From a virus, in the IMG/VR virus record IMGVR_UViG_3300044940_000075, positions 1-24,420 of that record: DNA of 24,420 bases. One strand, given 5' to 3'. Below the pieces are notes generated by a model. The model searched no databases. It was given only the letters and a program-made list of their open reading frames with translations, and was not told the origin of the DNA. Below are positions 3,015 to 12,953 of the stretch, one piece after another. Each line of letters opens with the position of its first letter. Position 1 is the first letter of the stretch. Made by a program: the position numbers and the translations under genes.

Positions 3015-4361
3015 TTAATACGTCCCGACAATCGGAGCACTCGCGGCACTGTACCTCCGCCACAACTCAAACGCACCGGATACAGCATCGATCATGTCAT
3101 CATGCGCGCCGTCCGGGAACATGTGTGCCTCAGCGAGAAAATCATCGACGTTCGCACCGGGCAGCCTCAGCAGATAGACCCGCCCCTGTTCGACTAACGC
3201 TGACCACTGCTGTGCTCTTTGCACCTTGTCGCGTTCCGGTCTTACAGGCGTCCATGATCTGCCATATCTCGCGGCTAACCCCATGAGCTCATGCGACATT
3301 GCCTTGCCTGATGCCCCGCCCTCCTCTTCACCGCCGTGTATCACATAATCAGGATCATGCTCGATGCATGATCTCACCCATTCGCGAACAGTGGCCCACG
3401 TTGCCCGTCTTCGCTGGACATAGATGTAATAGTTAGTCGAGTCTGTGTATAACACTGCTGTTGCGGTATAATCAGGATCGCTTGATCGCAAACTGCGTTC
3501 AGTCGCTGCAAAGTCCCAGTAGCGGAAGGCCCGCAAACCACGTGGGATTGAATCAACAAACTGAAACCATTGCCGATTAAGAACGAGACCTGACCCCTCT
3601 GCTATGTCCCAGTCGCCATATTTCAGTCGTTGACGCTGTACATAAGGCAGCATGTCCAGATTGCGTCTGTACTCGTCGGTTAACGCTGGGTTATCCGCCC
3701 ACGACATTGGAATATATGTCCTCGACCATGCACCGTCTTCGTGTGACTCGCATTCGACCTCTGATCCGTCCTCGGCTCGTCTGAACCATCGTAGCTCACC
3801 CGGTTTAGCTGGGTTCGGATAACGCCGATCGACCCATGGAGCCCACCTGCGCTTAACCCACTCGCTGCCGGGGTTAGACGATGCAACGACTCGCGTTCTG
3901 ATGCCCGATCCGCGAACAGTGCGAACGCGGCTGAACATGTACAGATACTGCTCCTCCTCAAAATGACTTAACTCATCAAAGCCGATGTACTGCAACTGTG
4001 AGCCCTGATAACGATAATAGTCGTAACGGTTAGCCATGTGGAGGAATCTTATTGTCTCGCCGTTGCGGAACGTCCAGATGTGCTTTGACTCATTATATGT
4101 ACCGCCGGCATACGGATACCAGTCGCGAGATACTGCAATAAGCCCGTCTGCTCCCTCAAGCTCTGGATATGTGCGTCTAACCAGTGCGGCGTTATAACCG
4201 CGCTTGCCGAGCTCAAGCATCGCGCCGATAACCAAACATAGTGACTTACCACCGCCCGCCGCTCCGCCGATAAGAGTCTCGTACGCAGACGTTCGCAGGA
4301 ATTCTGCCTGCGCGTTATTGATCGGTCGGAATATTCTTACTCGACTTTGTGCTGCTATCAT
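3015..4361 (-). CDS. terL: Terminase large subunit (packaging ATPase and nuclease)
   Basis: The motor that drives DNA into the prohead and cuts the concatemer. The 448-residue length is normal. The ATPase domain carries Walker A GGAAGGGKS at residues 32-40 and Walker B with catalytic acid in YIGFDELSHF (Asp129-Glu130), followed by the VVASSNPGS coupling segment. The nuclease half shows an acidic cluster beginning RYWDFAATE near residue 283 and a late HDDMIDAVSGA segment, both expected of the RNase H-like nuclease. The start at 4361 has AAGGTG as ribosome binding site. The gene immediately upstream is not the small terminase but an inserted ORF, and the ribosome binding site lies just beyond the left copy of an 18-bp repeat, so insertion left this gene intact. 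Confidence 0.95.
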   Translation of the reverse strand: MIAAQSRVRIFRPINNAQAEFLRTSAYETLIGGAAGGGKSLCLVIGAMLELGKRGYNAALVRRTYPELEGADGLIAVSRDWYPYAGGTYNESKHIWTFRNGETIRFLHMANRYDYYRYQGSQLQYIGFDELSHFEEEQYLYMFSRVRTVRGSGIRTRVVASSNPGSEWVKRRWAPWVDRRYPNPAKPGELRWFRRAEDGSEVECESHEDGAWSRTYIPMSWADNPALTDEYRRNLDMLPYVQRQRLKYGDWDIAEGSGLVLNRQWFQFVDSIPRGLRAFRYWDFAATERSLRSSDPDYTATAVLYTDSTNYYIYVQRRRATWATVREWVRSCIEHDPDYVIHGGEEEGGASGKAMSHELMGLAARYGRSWTPVRPERDKVQRAQQWSALVEQGRVYLLRLPGANVDDFLAEAHMFPDGAHDDMIDAVSGAFELWRRYSAASAPIVGTY

Positions 4362-4370
4362 TAAGCACCT

Positions 4371-4388
4371 TATCGTTAGGCGACGTCA
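4371..4388. repeat. 18-bp direct repeat, left copy, flanking the inserted gene
   Basis: TATCGTTAGGCGACGTCA, identical to 5060-5077 in the same orientation. The stop codon of the inserted gene falls within this copy, and the large-terminase ribosome binding site and ATG begin just beyond it. Confidence 0.9.
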
Positions 4389-5047
4389 ACAATGGCCCGG
4401 GCAGTGCGCGCCAGCAAGCGGGCAAACGTCTCGCGCTCCATCAAATGGCCCTTCGCCGCCGTTGTGATGGCGCGATCGAACTGAGCTTCAAGCTGCTGGC
4501 GAACGTCGTAATGCCCTTCGACCGAGCCCTGGCAGAGATAGGTGCCCAGGATTTCCGCCGCCTTTGCGAGGTGGTACTGCGTCATCAGCTCCCAGGCAGG
4601 ACGTGCGTCCTTTCGACGCTCAGCCTCCTCAAGGAACTCAGGCTCTCGTTCGCGCTGCTTTTCTCGAAGTTTCGCAACGCCTGACTGTACCCCGTCGAGA
4701 TCTTCCCACCCTTGTTTTCGCAGAAGCCTGATCCAGATATCCATAACCGTTGAACTGACTTCATCACCCCAGTTGGCCGAATCGTGGTAAAGGGATTGCG
4801 TATTAAATGCTGATAGCAACCTCCGAACATCAGGGTTCCGATCGCCCAACACCCCCAGACAACCGATGCGGACCAATTCAGACGCCTTCTGTAGCGGCTT
4901 GTCCGGAAGCGGCAGTGCCCTCGCCATCTGGAACGCCTCAGCCGCGGCTGTACGCAGCGCGTCCGTGTCATCCGATTCCAACAGGGCAAAAACACGTAAT
5001 TCAAGGGCATTCGCAAGAAAGCGCATATTATCGTGCTCCGTTATCAT
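4376..5047 (-). CDS. Inserted helical protein of unknown function between the terminase genes
   Basis: A 223-residue protein starting MITEHDNMRFLANALELRVFALLESDD by frame; Met8 at 5026 is the other possible start and may be better, because the recognisable helical sequence begins there. Neither has a strong ribosome binding site. The sequence is almost all amphipathic helix (ALRTAAAEAFQMARALPLP, GVAKLREKQREREPEFLEEA), with no membrane segment or catalytic motif I recognise; a helical-repeat fold is possible. It lies exactly between two copies of an 18-bp direct repeat, in a place where small and large terminase are normally adjacent. Its sequence looks unlike its neighbours: it has no GTTAAC palindrome and uses more GC-ending codons. 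I read it as a recently acquired passenger gene. Function unknown. Confidence 0.7.
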   Translation of the reverse strand: MITEHDNMRFLANALELRVFALLESDDTDALRTAAAEAFQMARALPLPDKPLQKASELVRIGCLGVLGDRNPDVRRLLSAFNTQSLYHDSANWGDEVSSTVMDIWIRLLRKQGWEDLDGVQSGVAKLREKQREREPEFLEEAERRKDARPAWELMTQYHLAKAAEILGTYLCQGSVEGHYDVRQQLEAQFDRAITTAAKGHLMERETFARLLARTARAIVDVA

Positions 5048-5687
5048 TGACCTGTATCCTATCGTTAGGCGACGTCATGATAATCACCGACGACCCTGCT
5101 TGCTGCGGCTCATCTGTGATCATGCCGGTTAACCTCAGGACGTGTTCACGCGCCTTACTCTTACTGTCGAGTGTGATGTTAACGCGCTCACGTGTGCCGT
5201 GTGGAGTCTCGATGCGCTCCACGCTGATCGACTGGATCGGGCCGCCTGCAGCTCGCACGCGCTTAATATCGATTCGGCCTGATTGATCGAGATATTGCGA
5301 TATATCACTGCTCAATGTCTCATCCAGTGATCTGATGACGAGCTCGCGCAGACGTGCTCTGCGAGCATTGATCGCTCTGTCTGTCTCCTCGTCGATTATG
5401 CGCTGGATGTTAGGATCTCTTAACAACTTAGATGCACTGACTGCAGCACCTCTGCGATCCGCGTCAGGGTACGCAACGCAGTATGCGCGCGTCGCGTTAT
5501 AGTCCTTGAGATACTCGATAATAAATGTTCTGCGGCGCAGGTTGATGCTCTCAGGCCAATCGATGACATGCTCTGCATCTGACTGTTGATCTGTTGCAGA
5601 TTGATCATGTGATTGCTCGACTGATCTACGAGTAGATTTTTTTTTGACTGGTGGTTTGACTGATTTTTTCAGTTTTGCGTCGGCCAT
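5028..5687 (-). CDS. terS: Terminase small subunit (C-terminus replaced by insertion)
   Basis: The DNA-recognition subunit of the packaging terminase. From Met at 5687 it is 219 residues: a Lys-rich head (KLKKSVKPPVKKKSTRR), then a helix-turn-helix region typical of the family, INLRRRTFIIEYLKDYNATRAY followed by SKLLRDPNIQRII. The frame is open further upstream to 5765, but that part overlaps the terminator hairpin and the promoter, so the start at 5687 is preferred even though no ribosome binding site precedes it. The last ten residues (RIQVNDNGAR) come from inserted DNA. Removing the insert and one repeat copy restores an in-frame tail of about 18 residues ending inside terL. Confidence 0.85.
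   Translation of the reverse strand: MADAKLKKSVKPPVKKKSTRRSVEQSHDQSATDQQSDAEHVIDWPESINLRRRTFIIEYLKDYNATRAYCVAYPDADRRGAAVSASKLLRDPNIQRIIDEETDRAINARRARLRELVIRSLDETLSSDISQYLDQSGRIDIKRVRAAGGPIQSISVERIETPHGTRERVNITLDSKSKAREHVLRLTGMITDEPQQAGSSVIIMTSPNDRIQVNDNGAR
5060..5077. repeat. 18-bp direct repeat, right copy, flanking the inserted gene
   Basis: Identical to 4371-4388. It lies in the small-terminase reading frame, encoding part of TSPND. Similarity between the two flanks continues weakly into the following AATGATA start-codon region on the minus strand. Confidence 0.9.
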
Positions 5688-6556: not shown

Positions 6557-6967
6557 TTAGACCCCGGACTGGTAATCTCCCGGGGATTGCAGCACAATCC
6601 CGTGATGCACCGCAGCCCAGCGCCGAACGCGCTCATAATACTCCTCAGCGTCTGCTGTGGTCATCTCGCTCGTTCTAACGATTCGCGGCGGAGCGAGAGG
6701 ATTGTCAGCATATTCGCGAGAGTGCTCAGACAGCAATATCTCATGCATCTCCGCATCAGAATATCCGAATTCCGCAGCCAGAGGTCTAACGATACAGGAC
6801 CAGTAATATCTGTTCTGTGCGACACTCCTGACTCGCTCAGTACTGACGACGACATGCACACGCCTGCCGGTTAACGTTTTGAGGCGGTTAACGACACTGG
6901 CATCTTCAGGGACAATCTCGCCTGCATCGTTAACCACCGCAGAGAATGTTATCGATCTCCTGCTCAT
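6557..6967 (-). CDS. NinB/Orf-like recombination protein
   Basis: 136 residues starting at 6967, with GGGGAGG seven bases upstream and the HNH stop codon touching its start. The central segment RSVAQNRYYWSCIVRPLAAEFGYSDAEMHEILL matches the pattern of the NinB (lambda Orf) group of phage recombination mediators, which bind single-stranded DNA and SSB. The C-terminal TTADAEEYYERVRRWAAVHHGIVL is also typical of these and related small phage recombination proteins. The window has an SSB gene that would be the natural partner. The family call is from pattern memory, so moderate; a generic phage protein of the same fold is the alternative. Confidence 0.5.
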   Translation of the reverse strand: MSRRSITFSAVVNDAGEIVPEDASVVNRLKTLTGRRVHVVVSTERVRSVAQNRYYWSCIVRPLAAEFGYSDAEMHEILLSEHSREYADNPLAPPRIVRTSEMTTADAEEYYERVRRWAAVHHGIVLQSPGDYQSGV

Positions 6968-7273
6968 CTATACCTCCCCGTATAACCACAGCAACCGATC
7001 CGCATATTCTGCCAGTGCCCGACTGCGCAGCCAACGGACACGATCCGCCAACGTTTTGTTGCGATCATAATCTGCATGGCACACCCGGCACAGGGTTATA
7101 ATGTTATCCGCATCCGCAGGATCGTATCGCACCAGCGCAACGTTGCGCGGGAGCAGGTGCGCTCCATCCAGCATCACAACTGCACCACGCGCACCGCAAG
7201 ACTGACAGGTATAACCATCGCGCTTCTTAGCTGAGCGTATCGCAGCACTGATTCTGCGCGAGCGATTGTTCAT
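6968..7273 (-). CDS. HNH endonuclease
   Basis: A 101-residue protein with the complete small-HNH pattern: Cys23-x2-Cys26 (TCQSC), then GAHLLPRN with catalytic His39, then NIITLCRVCHADYD with Asn57, Cys62, Cys65 and His66. The four cysteines should bind zinc and the His-Asn-His set bind the metal and cut DNA. Small free-standing HNH proteins in phages act in packaging, recombination or as homing nucleases; here it lies in the early block rather than beside terminase, so a replication/recombination or homing role is more likely. It overlaps the preceding octapeptide-repeat gene by 47 bases and abuts the NinB-like gene. Confidence 0.85.
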   Translation of the reverse strand: MNNRSRRISAAIRSAKKRDGYTCQSCGARGAVVMLDGAHLLPRNVALVRYDPADADNIITLCRVCHADYDRNKTLADRVRWLRSRALAEYADRLLWLYGEV

Positions 7274-7721
7274 TCTCTACTACACGGCTATCGTCATAGA
7301 GCTCAGGCGTATTCTCACCGTACAGGTACGCGATAGCGTTCTCATACAGCGTCGCTTGCGACTGACGCAGCATGTAGACGTGTGATTCGGCTAACGCTTC
7401 AGCATACGAGTTATCGCACAGATACACCGTTGCTCTGTCGTATACGTCAGCAGTCGAACGATCGAACAGTAATGCTGCGGACTGATCCATCAGGACAACA
7501 TGCGCCTGATCCCGTAGCAGAGCAAACGCTGTGCCATACAGCACTGCATGAGCATCGCCGCATAGAGTAACATGCCCCCTATCAGCTACATCAACGACAG
7601 CGTTCTGGTAACTATGTCGGATAACTATTCCCCGCGCTTCAATCACGATTCGCGCCTCCTCGTCTAACGTATCAGGCAGCGCATCAAGCTGTTCCTGCGT
7701 CAGTATTCTGATCCGTTGCAT
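7227..7721 (-). CDS. Octapeptide-repeat (beta-solenoid-like) protein, paralogue B
   Basis: 164 residues from ATG 7721, chosen because GAGGAGG lies just upstream; the upstream Met at 7739 lacks one. A short N-terminal head (RIRILTQEQLDALPD) is shared with the gene before it. From about residue 50 the protein is built of 8-residue units with small/hydrophobic residues at alternating positions and Asp/Gly at the unit ends (DAHAVLYG, DQAHVVLM, DQSAALLF, DRSTADVY, DRATVYLC). This periodicity predicts a right-handed beta-solenoid. Tandem copy of the neighbour with the same length of 164. Biochemical role unknown. Confidence 0.75.
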   Translation of the reverse strand: MQRIRILTQEQLDALPDTLDEEARIVIEARGIVIRHSYQNAVVDVADRGHVTLCGDAHAVLYGTAFALLRDQAHVVLMDQSAALLFDRSTADVYDRATVYLCDNSYAEALAESHVYMLRQSQATLYENAIAYLYGENTPELYDDSRVVENEQSLAQNQCCDTLS

Positions 7722-7735
7722 ATTTAACCTCCTCA

Positions 7736-8230
7736 TCAATTTATCACGTTATCAGATTGAGCTTGCAACATCTCTGTCTCGCTGTATACGCGTCTGCTGT
7801 TGTCATACAGGTCCGGATCATGTCTGCCCGTAGCGTACACTATAGCATTGCCGTACAGCCCAGCATGCGCATCCATGAACATATACACACGTGCATGATC
7901 GAACGCGTCTGCATATGCCCGATCGTTGAGATATACGATCGCTCTGTCATAGACGTCTGCGCTCGCTCGATCGTACAATAACGCTGCAGACTGATCGCGC
8001 AGAACAACGTGAGACATATCGCGTGCCACAGCGAAGGATCTACCATAAAGCACAGCGTGAGCATCGCCGTAGAGAGTAACGCAATATCGCCCTCTAACCT
8101 CCACGACAGCGTTATAATAATCCTGTCGAATAACGATGCCCGACCTCTCGATCAGTATTTGCGCCCCATCGCGAAATCCGTCTGGCAACGCGTCAAGCTG
8201 TTCCTGTGTCACTATCCGGATCATCTGCAT
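7736..8230 (-). CDS. Octapeptide-repeat (beta-solenoid-like) protein, paralogue A
   Basis: 164 residues from ATG 8230, with AGGAGGTTAACA directly before it; the frame continues upstream to 8302 over the previous gene and is not needed. Ten or so octads run from about residue 57 to 136: DAHAVLYG, RSFAVARD, MSHVVLRD, QSAALLYD, RASADVYD, RAIVYLND, RAYADAFD and so on. The head MQMIRIVTQEQLDALPD is nearly identical to paralogue B. Octapeptide proteins of this type occur in other phages, but no function is established to my knowledge. The acidic ladder suggests a DNA-mimic surface as one possibility, purely inferred. Confidence 0.75.
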   Translation of the reverse strand: MQMIRIVTQEQLDALPDGFRDGAQILIERSGIVIRQDYYNAVVEVRGRYCVTLYGDAHAVLYGRSFAVARDMSHVVLRDQSAALLYDRASADVYDRAIVYLNDRAYADAFDHARVYMFMDAHAGLYGNAIVYATGRHDPDLYDNSRRVYSETEMLQAQSDNVIN

Positions 8231-8456
8231 TGTTAACCTCCTCTTGAGTTGGCCACCCGGCAAACATAGTCCTCGCCATCGCAGCATGCGCTCGCGCAGC
8301 ATTGCTATTGAGGACGCTCTCGATTATATCAACGTCGATACGTCTGCGATACCAGTGCGACCAGCGAACCAGCATGTCCTGCAGATCATCTGATAGCAGC
8401 TTCCATCGCTGATACGCGGCATCGTCAGCAAACATCCTGTTATCGATCACGCGCAT
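8193..8456 (-). CDS. Small helical protein of unknown function
   Basis: 87 residues starting at 8456, overlapping the end of the winged-helix initiator-like gene by ten bases; AAGGA in that gene's tail is the ribosome binding site. Its own end runs past the start of paralogue A by 38 bases. The sequence is mainly helical and aromatic/basic (AYQRWKLLSDDLQDMLVRWSHWYRRRIDVD) with a polar acidic tail (DDPDSDTGTA). No domain recognised. Because it is translationally coupled to the initiator-like gene, a replication accessory role is reasonable but unproven. Confidence 0.6.
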   Translation of the reverse strand: MRVIDNRMFADDAAYQRWKLLSDDLQDMLVRWSHWYRRRIDVDIIESVLNSNAARAHAAMARTMFAGWPTQEEVNNADDPDSDTGTA

Positions 8457-10291: not shown

Positions 10292-11257
10292 ATGTTTACA
10301 AGAGCAACAAAAAAGCAGGCGCGGCTTCGAGCTGCGCTCTATGGCCCGCCGGGCGCGGGTAAGACGTTTTCAGCTCTGTCTATCGCGACAGGGCTTGGCG
10401 AGAGGATCGCTGTGATCGACACAGAGCGATGCTCAGCGAGCAAATACGCAGGCCAGTATGTGTTTGATGTTTGCGATCTCGACGATCGCAGCGTTGACTC
10501 ATATATCAGAGCAATCACCGCTGCAGCTCAGGCTAAATATGATGTGCTGATCATCGACTCGCTCAGTCACGCATGGCAGGAGCTGCTGGTCGAAGTCGAG
10601 CGACTCGCAGCAGCTAAATTCCGTGGCAACACGTGGTCCGCGTGGTCAGAGGGCACGCCAAAACAGCGGCGGCTGGTCGATGCGATCCTGAGTTATCCGG
10701 GCCACGTCATAGCGACGATGAGAAGCAAGATCGAATATGTGGTCGGCGAACATAACGGCAAAACAGCTCCGCGTCGCGTAGGTCTTGCTCCTGAACAGGG
10801 CAAGGGGATCGAATATGAGTTTGATCTGTTAGTCGAGCTATCTCAGGAGCATATCGCGCACGTCGTGAAGGACCGATCAGGACTTGCGCAGGACAGATTG
10901 ATTGAGAAGCCGGGCCCGGAATTCGGACGCGAGCTTGCCGCATGGCTGAGCGACGGCCAGCCTGTCCAGCAGACACAACCAGCACAGCCCGCACAGCCGC
11001 AAAAGCAGCCAGCACAGCAGGCGGAAACGAAAACCGCTGCGGTTAACGCAGAGATTCAGTATCATCCCTCGCTGCATGATCCGGTCTGGGGTCTGATACC
11101 TGCCCTTCCTCGCGCGCATTCTGTCGATATGGTTAACCAGCTTCGCGAGTGGTGGCAGGGCAAAAAGGCTAAACTGCCGCAGCACGTATATGATTATGGT
11201 CTGAGAATGCTCGCGACGCGCGAAGAAGAACTGCTACCTGAGGAGGTTAAAAAATGA
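10292..11257 (+). CDS. Sak4-like RecA-fold ATPase (single-strand annealing)
   Basis: A 321-residue P-loop ATPase. Walker A is YGPPGAGKT (residues about 17-25); Walker B is DVLIIDSLSHAW near residue 88; AVIDTER after the first helix is a common feature of the group, and VIATMRSK is a sensor-like segment. Residues 215-250 are a Gln/Pro/Ala linker, followed by a small C-terminal helical domain. Phage nucleotide-binding proteins of this kind include Sak4, a RecA-core annealing protein that works with SSB. The operon (nuclease, SSB, resolvase) fits this well. The start at 10292 has GAGGAGG nine bases before it. Annotation as Sak4 itself is inferred from context; the ATPase fold is clear. Confidence 0.75.
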   Translation: MFTRATKKQARLRAALYGPPGAGKTFSALSIATGLGERIAVIDTERCSASKYAGQYVFDVCDLDDRSVDSYIRAITAAAQAKYDVLIIDSLSHAWQELLVEVERLAAAKFRGNTWSAWSEGTPKQRRLVDAILSYPGHVIATMRSKIEYVVGEHNGKTAPRRVGLAPEQGKGIEYEFDLLVELSQEHIAHVVKDRSGLAQDRLIEKPGPEFGRELAAWLSDGQPVQQTQPAQPAQPQKQPAQQAETKTAAVNAEIQYHPSLHDPVWGLIPALPRAHSVDMVNQLREWWQGKKAKLPQHVYDYGLRMLATREEELLPEEVKK

Positions 11258-12132
11258 GACTGACTAACACTCAAGGACTGCCTGACGCTATCGTGCAGGC
11301 GGTCCGGAATGAAAAATACAGCCGCGGCGATGCGGACTACAGCGCGACAGAGCTGATCGCACCTGCTCGCATTGTACAGCTACGCAGACGATATGCAGAT
11401 GAGATCGAGATCGACGTCTCTGAGCGTGTCTGGTCTGTGCTCGGCTCAGCAGTCCATGCGATACTCGACCGGGCGAACGTGTCTAACGCTCTGCAGGAAG
11501 AGCGCATATATGCTGAGCTACTCAATCGTAGAATCAGCGGGGCCAGTGACCTGTACGAGCATGACGGCACGATCACTGACTACAAGGTCACGTCAGTCTA
11601 TACGTCAATTTACTGCAGTCGTATCGATGACTGGACAGCACAGCTCAATATCTATGCGTACCTGTTCAGATCGATAGGGTTCGCGGTTAACCGACTCCAG
11701 ATCGTTGCAATCTATCGAGACTGGCGGGCTTCAGACGCAGAGCGCAATGCAGACTACCCGCGCTCCATGATCGAGCAGATCGACATAGAGCTCTGGCCTG
11801 AAGCTGTGCAGCGATCATATATCGAGCAACGTCTGCAGCAATTGATTGATGCTGAGTCACAGTCAGACGATGAGCTGCCAGAGTGCACGTCTGAGGAGAT
11901 GTGGCAGCGGCCTGCATCGTATGCAGTAATGAAGAAGGGCAATAAAACTGCGCGGCGTGTCCTGCAGACTCGCGAAGAGGCTGAGCAGTATATCAGCGAG
12001 CAGAGTAAGCCTGCTGATTATGAGATTGTGCATCGTCCCGGTCGGCGTATCAGATGCGAGAGCTACTGCGACGTATCTCGCTGGTGCAGTGTCTATCAGC
12101 GATATGCTCAGCAGAGCAATGGCGAGGAGTGA
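11254..12132 (+). CDS. PD-(D/E)XK exonuclease (Cas4/RecB-like)
   Basis: A 292-residue nuclease. The catalytic core is GASDLYEHDGTITDYKVTS near residues 95-113, with the Asp and D-Y-K of the PD-(D/E)XK motif, preceded by an AVHAILD helix carrying a motif-type His and followed by a Gln-containing helix (WTAQLNIYAYLF), as in RecB/Cas4 nucleases. The C-terminus has three closely spaced cysteines (RCESYCDVSRWC), reminiscent of, but not a complete, Cas4 iron-sulphur ligand set because no fourth N-terminal cysteine is evident. It overlaps the ATPase by ATGA with GAGGAGG upstream. It probably resects DNA ends to feed the Sak4-like protein. Confidence 0.75.
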   Translation: MRLTNTQGLPDAIVQAVRNEKYSRGDADYSATELIAPARIVQLRRRYADEIEIDVSERVWSVLGSAVHAILDRANVSNALQEERIYAELLNRRISGASDLYEHDGTITDYKVTSVYTSIYCSRIDDWTAQLNIYAYLFRSIGFAVNRLQIVAIYRDWRASDAERNADYPRSMIEQIDIELWPEAVQRSYIEQRLQQLIDAESQSDDELPECTSEEMWQRPASYAVMKKGNKTARRVLQTREEAEQYISEQSKPADYEIVHRPGRRIRCESYCDVSRWCSVYQRYAQQSNGEE

Positions 12133-12135
12133 TGT

Positions 12136-12522
12136 ATGACAGACATGAATCACGTGTTCATTGTGGGTCGGTTAACCGCCGACCCTGAACTAAAAACGAT
12201 ACAGAATAACGTGCAACTGTGTCGATTCTCAATCGCTGTGAATCGCAGTTACACGCGAGACGACGGACGCGAGGAACAGGAAGTCTCGTTTTTTCAGTGC
12301 ACCGCGTGGGCGCGGATCGGCGATGCGATATATCGCTATGCTGGCAAAGGCCAAAAGATCGCTATAGCCGGGCGATTGCGACAGAATCGCTGGCAGGATT
12401 CTAACGGCGTTAACCGCAGCGCAGTCGAGATTGTAGTCACGTCGTTCCAGCTATTCGGTCAGCCGGGATCGGCTAACTCTCAGAGCGATGCAATAGATGA
12501 TCCGGAGGATGTCCCGTTCTGA
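12136..12522 (+). CDS. ssb: Single-stranded DNA-binding protein
   Basis: 128 residues with the classic SSB OB-fold sequence: MNHVFIVGRLTADPELK, then FSIAVNRSYT, SFFQCTAWARIGDAIYRYAGKGQKIAIAGRLRQNRW and VEIVVTSFQLFG. It ends with the acidic tip DDPEDVPF, the conserved tail by which SSB recruits partner proteins, so a working hub for the phage nuclease, annealing protein and possibly host enzymes is expected. The linker is short, giving a compact protein compared with about 178 residues in E. coli. It sits three bases after the nuclease stop and overlaps the start of rusA. Confidence 0.95.
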   Translation: MTDMNHVFIVGRLTADPELKTIQNNVQLCRFSIAVNRSYTRDDGREEQEVSFFQCTAWARIGDAIYRYAGKGQKIAIAGRLRQNRWQDSNGVNRSAVEIVVTSFQLFGQPGSANSQSDAIDDPEDVPF

Positions 12523-12953
12523 GCACAAGATCAATCGAGATCAATCTACCCTACCCGCCGTCGGTGAATCACTACTGGAGGCGGGCAGGCAATCGAACCT
12601 ATATATCGCGTGAGGCTGTCAGATATATCAGCTCAGTGCATGACGCTGTCATGCAGTCTGGCACCCCTCACTCTCTCACAGACAGAGACATATCAGCAAT
12701 CATATATGTTTATCCGCCGGATAGACGTCGCCGGGACATTGATAACGTTCTTAAGGCGATCCTCGACGCATTGCAGCGCGCTGGTGTGTATAACGACGAC
12801 TCGCAGATCAGCACAGTGTACATTGAGCGATGCGAGCCTGTGTGCGGCGGAGCTGTGCGAGTGATCCTCTCAACGTTAGAGCGCGGGCAAAAAAATTGCC
12901 CGCATTGCGCGGGCGATGAGGTAAGACCGAGCGAGCCCGATAGTCGCTCGTGA
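12519..12953 (+). CDS. rusA: RusA Holliday junction resolvase, probable CTG start
   Basis: Resolves four-way DNA junctions left by recombination or replication before packaging. The family core is present: YPPDRRRRDIDNVLKAILDALQRAGVYNDDSQI, with the catalytic Asp residues of the RRDIDN and NDDSQ segments. The usual N-terminus IEINLPYPPSVNHYWR begins upstream of the first GTG (12564), so translation must start earlier. The only in-frame near-cognate start is CTG at 12519, with GGAGG at 12504-12508 and a CTGA overlap with the ssb stop; the frame is closed by TGA at 12498. The last 20 or so codons also carry the terminator of the opposing operon. Confidence 0.85.
   Translation: MSTRSIEINLPYPPSVNHYWRRAGNRTYISREAVRYISSVHDAVMQSGTPHSLTDRDISAIIYVYPPDRRRRDIDNVLKAILDALQRAGVYNDDSQISTVYIERCEPVCGGAVRVILSTLERGQKNCPHCAGDEVRPSEPDSRS
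12889..12914 (-). terminator. Intrinsic terminator of the leftward tail/lysis operon, inside rusA
   Basis: Read leftward: stem GCCCGC/GCGGGC (12914-12909 with 12903-12898), loop GCAAT, then AATTTTTTT. It lies about 100 bases beyond the end of the lysin gene. The same bases can form a second, mutually exclusive hairpin, GCGGGCAA-A5-TTGCCCGC (12883-12903), on the rusA message. Confidence 0.75.

Follow-up and report, generated by a model that had tools for sequence, protein, structure and literature searches.

The terminase operon of the virus described here is interrupted by a gene which, by sequence homology, is a fragment that the phage took from an anti-phage gene of a host, namely the PDC-M23B helicase of a Hachiman-like (HamAB-type) pair. 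The insert encodes the N-terminal alpha-helical (NAH) domain of this HamB-like protein and nothing of its helicase. Tentatively, and at somewhat less than even likelihood, the phage would turn the nuclease-binding domain of a Hachiman-type system, recently captured from a host helicase gene and with an 18-bp scar still visible, against that very system.

The interrupted terminase junction

The window, that is, the whole stretch of DNA analysed, comes from a virus record and comprises 24,420 bases (Table 1). Its minus strand carries, in order, terS, a 223-codon ORF, and terL. The exact 18-bp direct repeat that the original prediction had placed around this ORF was recovered: TATCGTTAGGCGACGTCA is present in exactly two copies, with no further copy in the window when up to 3 mismatches are allowed, and lies far above chance, shuffles giving an expectation of 0.01 matches. 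As had also been proposed, removal of the insert and one repeat copy leaves a single frame running into terL, in which the flanks fused at the remaining copy encode a 227-aa terS ending ...TSPNDKVLNDSSTKSSKNIPTDQ within terL. In the interrupted state, terS owes both its tail, RIQVNDNGAR, and its new stop to the insertion, and overlaps the start of the insert by 20 nt. The insert in turn draws its TAA from the repeat, 14 nt ahead of the terL ATG, and terL is intact and retains its own leader AAGGTGCTTAATG, all in agreement with the earlier description. The likeness of the start regions (AATGATA) that had been pointed out is real but weak, with about 3-4% of shuffles aligning equally well. No inverted repeats were found at the two ends of the insert, its ORF has no transposase match, and the insert encodes neither a transposase nor a site-specific recombinase.

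Table 1. Features of the insertion locus and of the recombination module in the 24,420-base window
Feature	Position	Strand	Remarks
terL	3015..4361	-	Terminase_6N/6C; phrog_979 E 3e-97
Repeat copy, terL side	4371..4388	-	contains insert stop codon TAA
Inserted ORF, 223 aa	4376..5047	-	NAH (HamA-binding) domain of M23B/HamB-like helicase, without helicase domains
TGAC, 4 bp common to donor (GTTGAC) and phage repeat	4385..4388	-	microhomology, terL-side junction
Stretch homologous to chromosomal M23B genes	4385..5034	-	90-94% DNA identity, ACGATAA to GTTGAC
terS	5028..5687	-	Terminase_2 E 1e-14
25 bp, matched to neither donor nor phage origin	5035..5059	-	between repeat and donor homology
Repeat copy, terS side	5060..5077	-	encodes terS ...MTSPND
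Recombination module: Sak4-like/AAA_24 protein, exonuclease, SSB, RusA-like resolvase	10292..12953	+	candidate capture agent

Of the terL genes in the phage collection, the nearest (40% identity) is that of psiM2, a phage of Methanobacterium, in which terS shares 56 bp with terL and no gene lies between them; several prophages with a related terL have an ORF that stops at most a few bases from where terL starts. Because of this overlap and these abutting ORFs, an uninterrupted terS-terL arrangement is likely to be ancestral, as judged from sequence. The proposal of a foreign insert with a target duplication is supported by the terS-terL adjacency in psiM2, by chromosomal homology, and by host-like codon use. 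The insert-free junction that had been proposed as something to look for in related genomes has a counterpart in the psiM2 overlap, but an empty site was seen in no close relative: a search of IMG/VR with the 18-mer did not find one, a search for terS relatives gave none, and the only close relative found (G001, 97% DNA identity) stops inside terL. Other phages and plasmids yielded no copy of the fragment. The terL genes closest among deposited phages are those of archaeal viruses; by contrast, the nearest copies of the captured gene are in Moorella and in a genome of the same phylum.

Origin and fold of the inserted domain

Searches of Pfam, PHROGs, NCBIfam, and PDB sequences with the insert gave nothing significant; the matches to HEAT and phrog_1875 were insignificant and were dropped. 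The PADLOC profile PDC-M23B (PDLC04531), however, matches it with E 2e-54, over positions 43-263 only of the 1060-position model. A genome scan then recovered an intact M23B of 1065 aa in Moorella thermoacetica (L004), with 88% aa identity across the fragment, an open M23B frame of 1070 aa in another genome from that phylum (G052), to which the fragment is 94% identical in DNA, and a further match in a contig binned as Uliginosibacterium (L005). Taken together, the Moorella and G052 copies have 91-94% DNA identity with the insert. A second match of the phage in G052 fell in a low-complexity PAQPQ stretch and was discarded. The fragment corresponds to about codons 52-268 of the Moorella gene and ends ahead of the helicase core, which starts near residue 300; the phage protein, 223 aa without a helicase match, is thus a HamB domain and not a HamB. 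The earlier view of a cargo-gene insertion was largely right as to the insertion, but what was inserted comes from within a defence helicase gene and is not a whole gene. Codon use of the insert resembles that of chromosomal genes and differs from that of all 15 phage genes tested (-0.017 vs +0.047 to +0.187). A short decayed M23B relic, with a 109-aa ORF, was also observed in a chromosome (L029:1474-1803; G346:C41).

An AF2 model of the phage protein, built with eight homologues, is all-helical (pLDDT 91.9), with helices covering residues 2-222, and forms one complete domain. In VIA-align, three E. coli HamB structures (8vx9/8vxa/8vxy) rank first, all at HamB 47-269, with 183-203 residues aligned, rmsd 2.5-2.9, and 13% sequence identity. 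Their Z scores are 17.7, 15.0, and 14.6, as compared with about 10 for the next unrelated chains; high scores come easily for helical bundles, but in this case the alignment also falls on the part of HamB that is homologous in the parent protein. Foldseek likewise gives a TM-score of 0.70 to 8vxy_B, and at most 0.40 for other, non-HamB chains among the matches listed. Designed helical proteins and 14-3-3, with lower Z, were judged to reflect common helical arrangements.

M23A, the gene directly before M23B, adjoins it in 6 of the 6 loci examined, and whereas it has no sequence match in Pfam, its model matches HamA (Z 16.7, 240 of 259 residues; Foldseek E 1e-5) and it carries a conserved motif, GADLVGF...FGEVK, of the D-E(X)K type. 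M23B itself has a Ski2/Brr2-type helicase core (Pfam DEAD and Helicase_C), which matches HamB 8vx9_B over residues 300-714 (E 8e-26) and the PADLOC HamB profile (E 1e-60), preceded by the NAH domain, the part modelled here. Since M23A models as HamA and the modelled part of M23B matches the HamB NAH domain, M23AB is, on these models, a Hachiman-like pair with a putative role in protection against phages. In PADLOC, which covers both known and candidate systems, M23 carries a PDC name. The phage protein is thus the same helical domain as the NAH domain of E. coli HamB across the captured length, but stands alone, without the helicase, OB, and C-terminal parts of the latter; likewise, it is 88% identical in protein to the N-terminal part of an M23B, but the phage has only about codons 52-268 of the 1065 and no M23A.

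Capture and junctions

The two junctions differ in structure. On the terL side, donor homology stops at GTTGAC and the phage repeat starts with TGAC. On the terS side, a 25-bp stretch separates the repeat from the donor homology; it supplies the start codon (5045-5047) with a weak AGG ahead, matches the rest of the window and the tested loci over 10 bp at most, and belongs to a region in which GATA is found 4 times in 45 nt. Derivation of the 25 bp from the terL start was rejected for weak likeness (p about 0.03), as was an apparent continuation of the donor homology across the repeat (RRL..TIG), which is not significant (p 0.055), and short local DNA matches to donors were judged to be due to chance.

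While the phage replicated, its DNA would have been joined to the host M23B by annealing at short homologies or by template switching, and re-entry into phage sequence 14-18 bp upstream of the point of departure would have created the direct repeat. Short-homology recombination or template switching is the best explanation of the repeat, as a patchwork reading made after the fact. The statement that no recombinase is present proved wrong: besides the module listed in Table 1, with its Sak4-like annealing protein, exonuclease, SSB, and RusA-like resolvase, the phage encodes a NinB/Orf-like mediator (6557-6967). Sak4 together with its SSB anneals single strands (PMC5928155), and the Sak4-like/SSB system of the phage is a plausible agent of the capture. 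An assembly chimera was judged unlikely, as no copy of the 18-mer turned up in the donor loci.

Two other origins were considered. A donor allele might have been cut at TTGAC by an IS200/IS605-type element, and the TTGAC at which the fragment ends is indeed followed directly, in L005, by an element with a Y1 transposase (Pfam E 1e-30, hairpin z -3.5). This origin is nevertheless unlikely: the insert is without a transposase, TTGAC occurs three times in the Moorella gene, a closer allele than that of L005 exists (93% vs 90%), and such elements are not known to produce an 18-bp target duplication. The two breaks at one TTGAC, in the phage fragment and in L005, may be due to chance or to a donor allele already cut there. 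Alternatively, an 18-nt staggered break made, for example, by the terminase or another nuclease, into which a host fragment was joined during fill-in, would give a duplication, and the exact repeat does lie beside the terminase genes. Yet no cos or nuclease site is known at this locus, and blunt capture does not predict the 4-bp microhomology on the terL side; we consider such a break improbable, slightly more so than the cut donor allele.

The L005 locus has features of its own. Its first part (L005:1-1420; G003:C110) holds the tail of M23A and codons 1-267 of M23B, cut directly after TTGAC. The cutting element is of the IS200/IS605 type, with a hairpin at its left end and a transposase frame with an in-frame TAG. 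It is followed by a phage regulator, terS, terL, and portal, and phage head and tail genes are present on the contig.

Possible roles of the captured domain

In Hachiman, the NAH domain of HamB binds the nuclease HamA; HamB keeps HamA in check, and defence needs formation of the complex (PMC12278908). A free NAH domain would replace the full helicase as the partner bound by the HamA-like nuclease M23A, and the nuclease pool so bound could be neither assembled with nor activated by the sensor helicase. Fold and ancestry point, with the balance about even, to a dominant-negative anti-Hachiman decoy made from the captured domain of the host M23B. A benefit of such a decoy is plausible because an SSB is among the proteins encoded here and the SSB of phages is believed to be what Hachiman responds to (PMC12904381).

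The changes found only in the phage copy comprise 14 silent and 9 replacing ones, where about 28% silent are expected (p 0.001 vs neutral; ratio about 0.25). This excess of silent changes argues against long neutral drift; it may predate the capture and have arisen in the host, and the silent-to-replacing ratio of the phage is no different from that of the host branches (Fisher p 0.47). Several observations count against the decoy. Part of the nuclease interface may be missing from the fragment, because M23B residues 1-51 and the helix after 268 are absent. The position among packaging genes also counts against an inhibitor, since expression of such genes is usually late and many inhibitors do their work early. 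Also counted against it are the single phage carrier, the presence of M23B debris in chromosomes (L029), and the unexplained 25-bp stretch.

Carriage by a single phage and the decay of M23B fragments in chromosomes equally speak for a serious rival, namely that a random host fragment was captured recently, is functionless and tolerated, terS and terL having been spared, and has not yet decayed. Host-like codon use also suggests recent entry, and any gene piece in frame is open by default. What was captured is, however, one complete folded domain, with a start codon at its beginning, and replacement changes are not in excess; we regard a functionless passenger as less likely than the decoy, though a real possibility. 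A third reading is that the fragment helps the phage in another way, by binding its terminase, tuning terS-terL expression, or excluding competing phages. The location within the terminase operon, overlapping terS and just ahead of terL, would suit such a role, but fold and ancestry indicate a nuclease-binding NAH domain and psiM2, with the closest terL, has no gene at that place, which leaves this reading improbable.

For the anti-Hachiman decoy, comparisons can be drawn with known cases. A virulent phage is reported to have taken a functional methylase domain (type IIA) from the lactococcal plasmid pTR2030 (Hill et al. 1991, cited in PMC3475682). By that report, capture of a single domain from a host defence gene is already known, and the present case is a variant of it: both involve a phage-taken domain of a host defence gene, in that instance of restriction-modification, but there an enzyme domain shields the phage from restriction, whereas here a binding domain would jam a complex. 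With pseudo-ToxI or hijacked ToxI, PhiTE phages hold the neutralising component of a host system, acquired in PhiTE-F by recombination (PMC3475682), and AdfB of ICP1 is an antitoxin mimic (PMC11481870). In these cases, too, the phage bears a neutralising part of the host's own system; they are, however, antitoxins of toxin-antitoxin systems, whereas the present domain is cut from a sensor helicase. The phage anti-Hachiman protein Had1, compared by description only, would share the target system; the reviews consulted do not give its mechanism.

If the decoy works, it illustrates how a specific inhibitor can arise in a single step, when a phage copies from a defence complex the domain that mediates its interactions. 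The domain would then offer a reagent for probing how HamA-type nucleases are held and released, and the case suggests a search rule, that is, to look for domain-sized fragments of defence genes in phages. The visible scar moreover opens the mechanism of capture to study.

Elsewhere in the window, two adjacent paralogous ORFs (7227-8302) contain regular short repeats (RIVTQEQLDALP... then ALYGxAxAxLYDRA...), a pattern that suggests a beta-helix-like protein.
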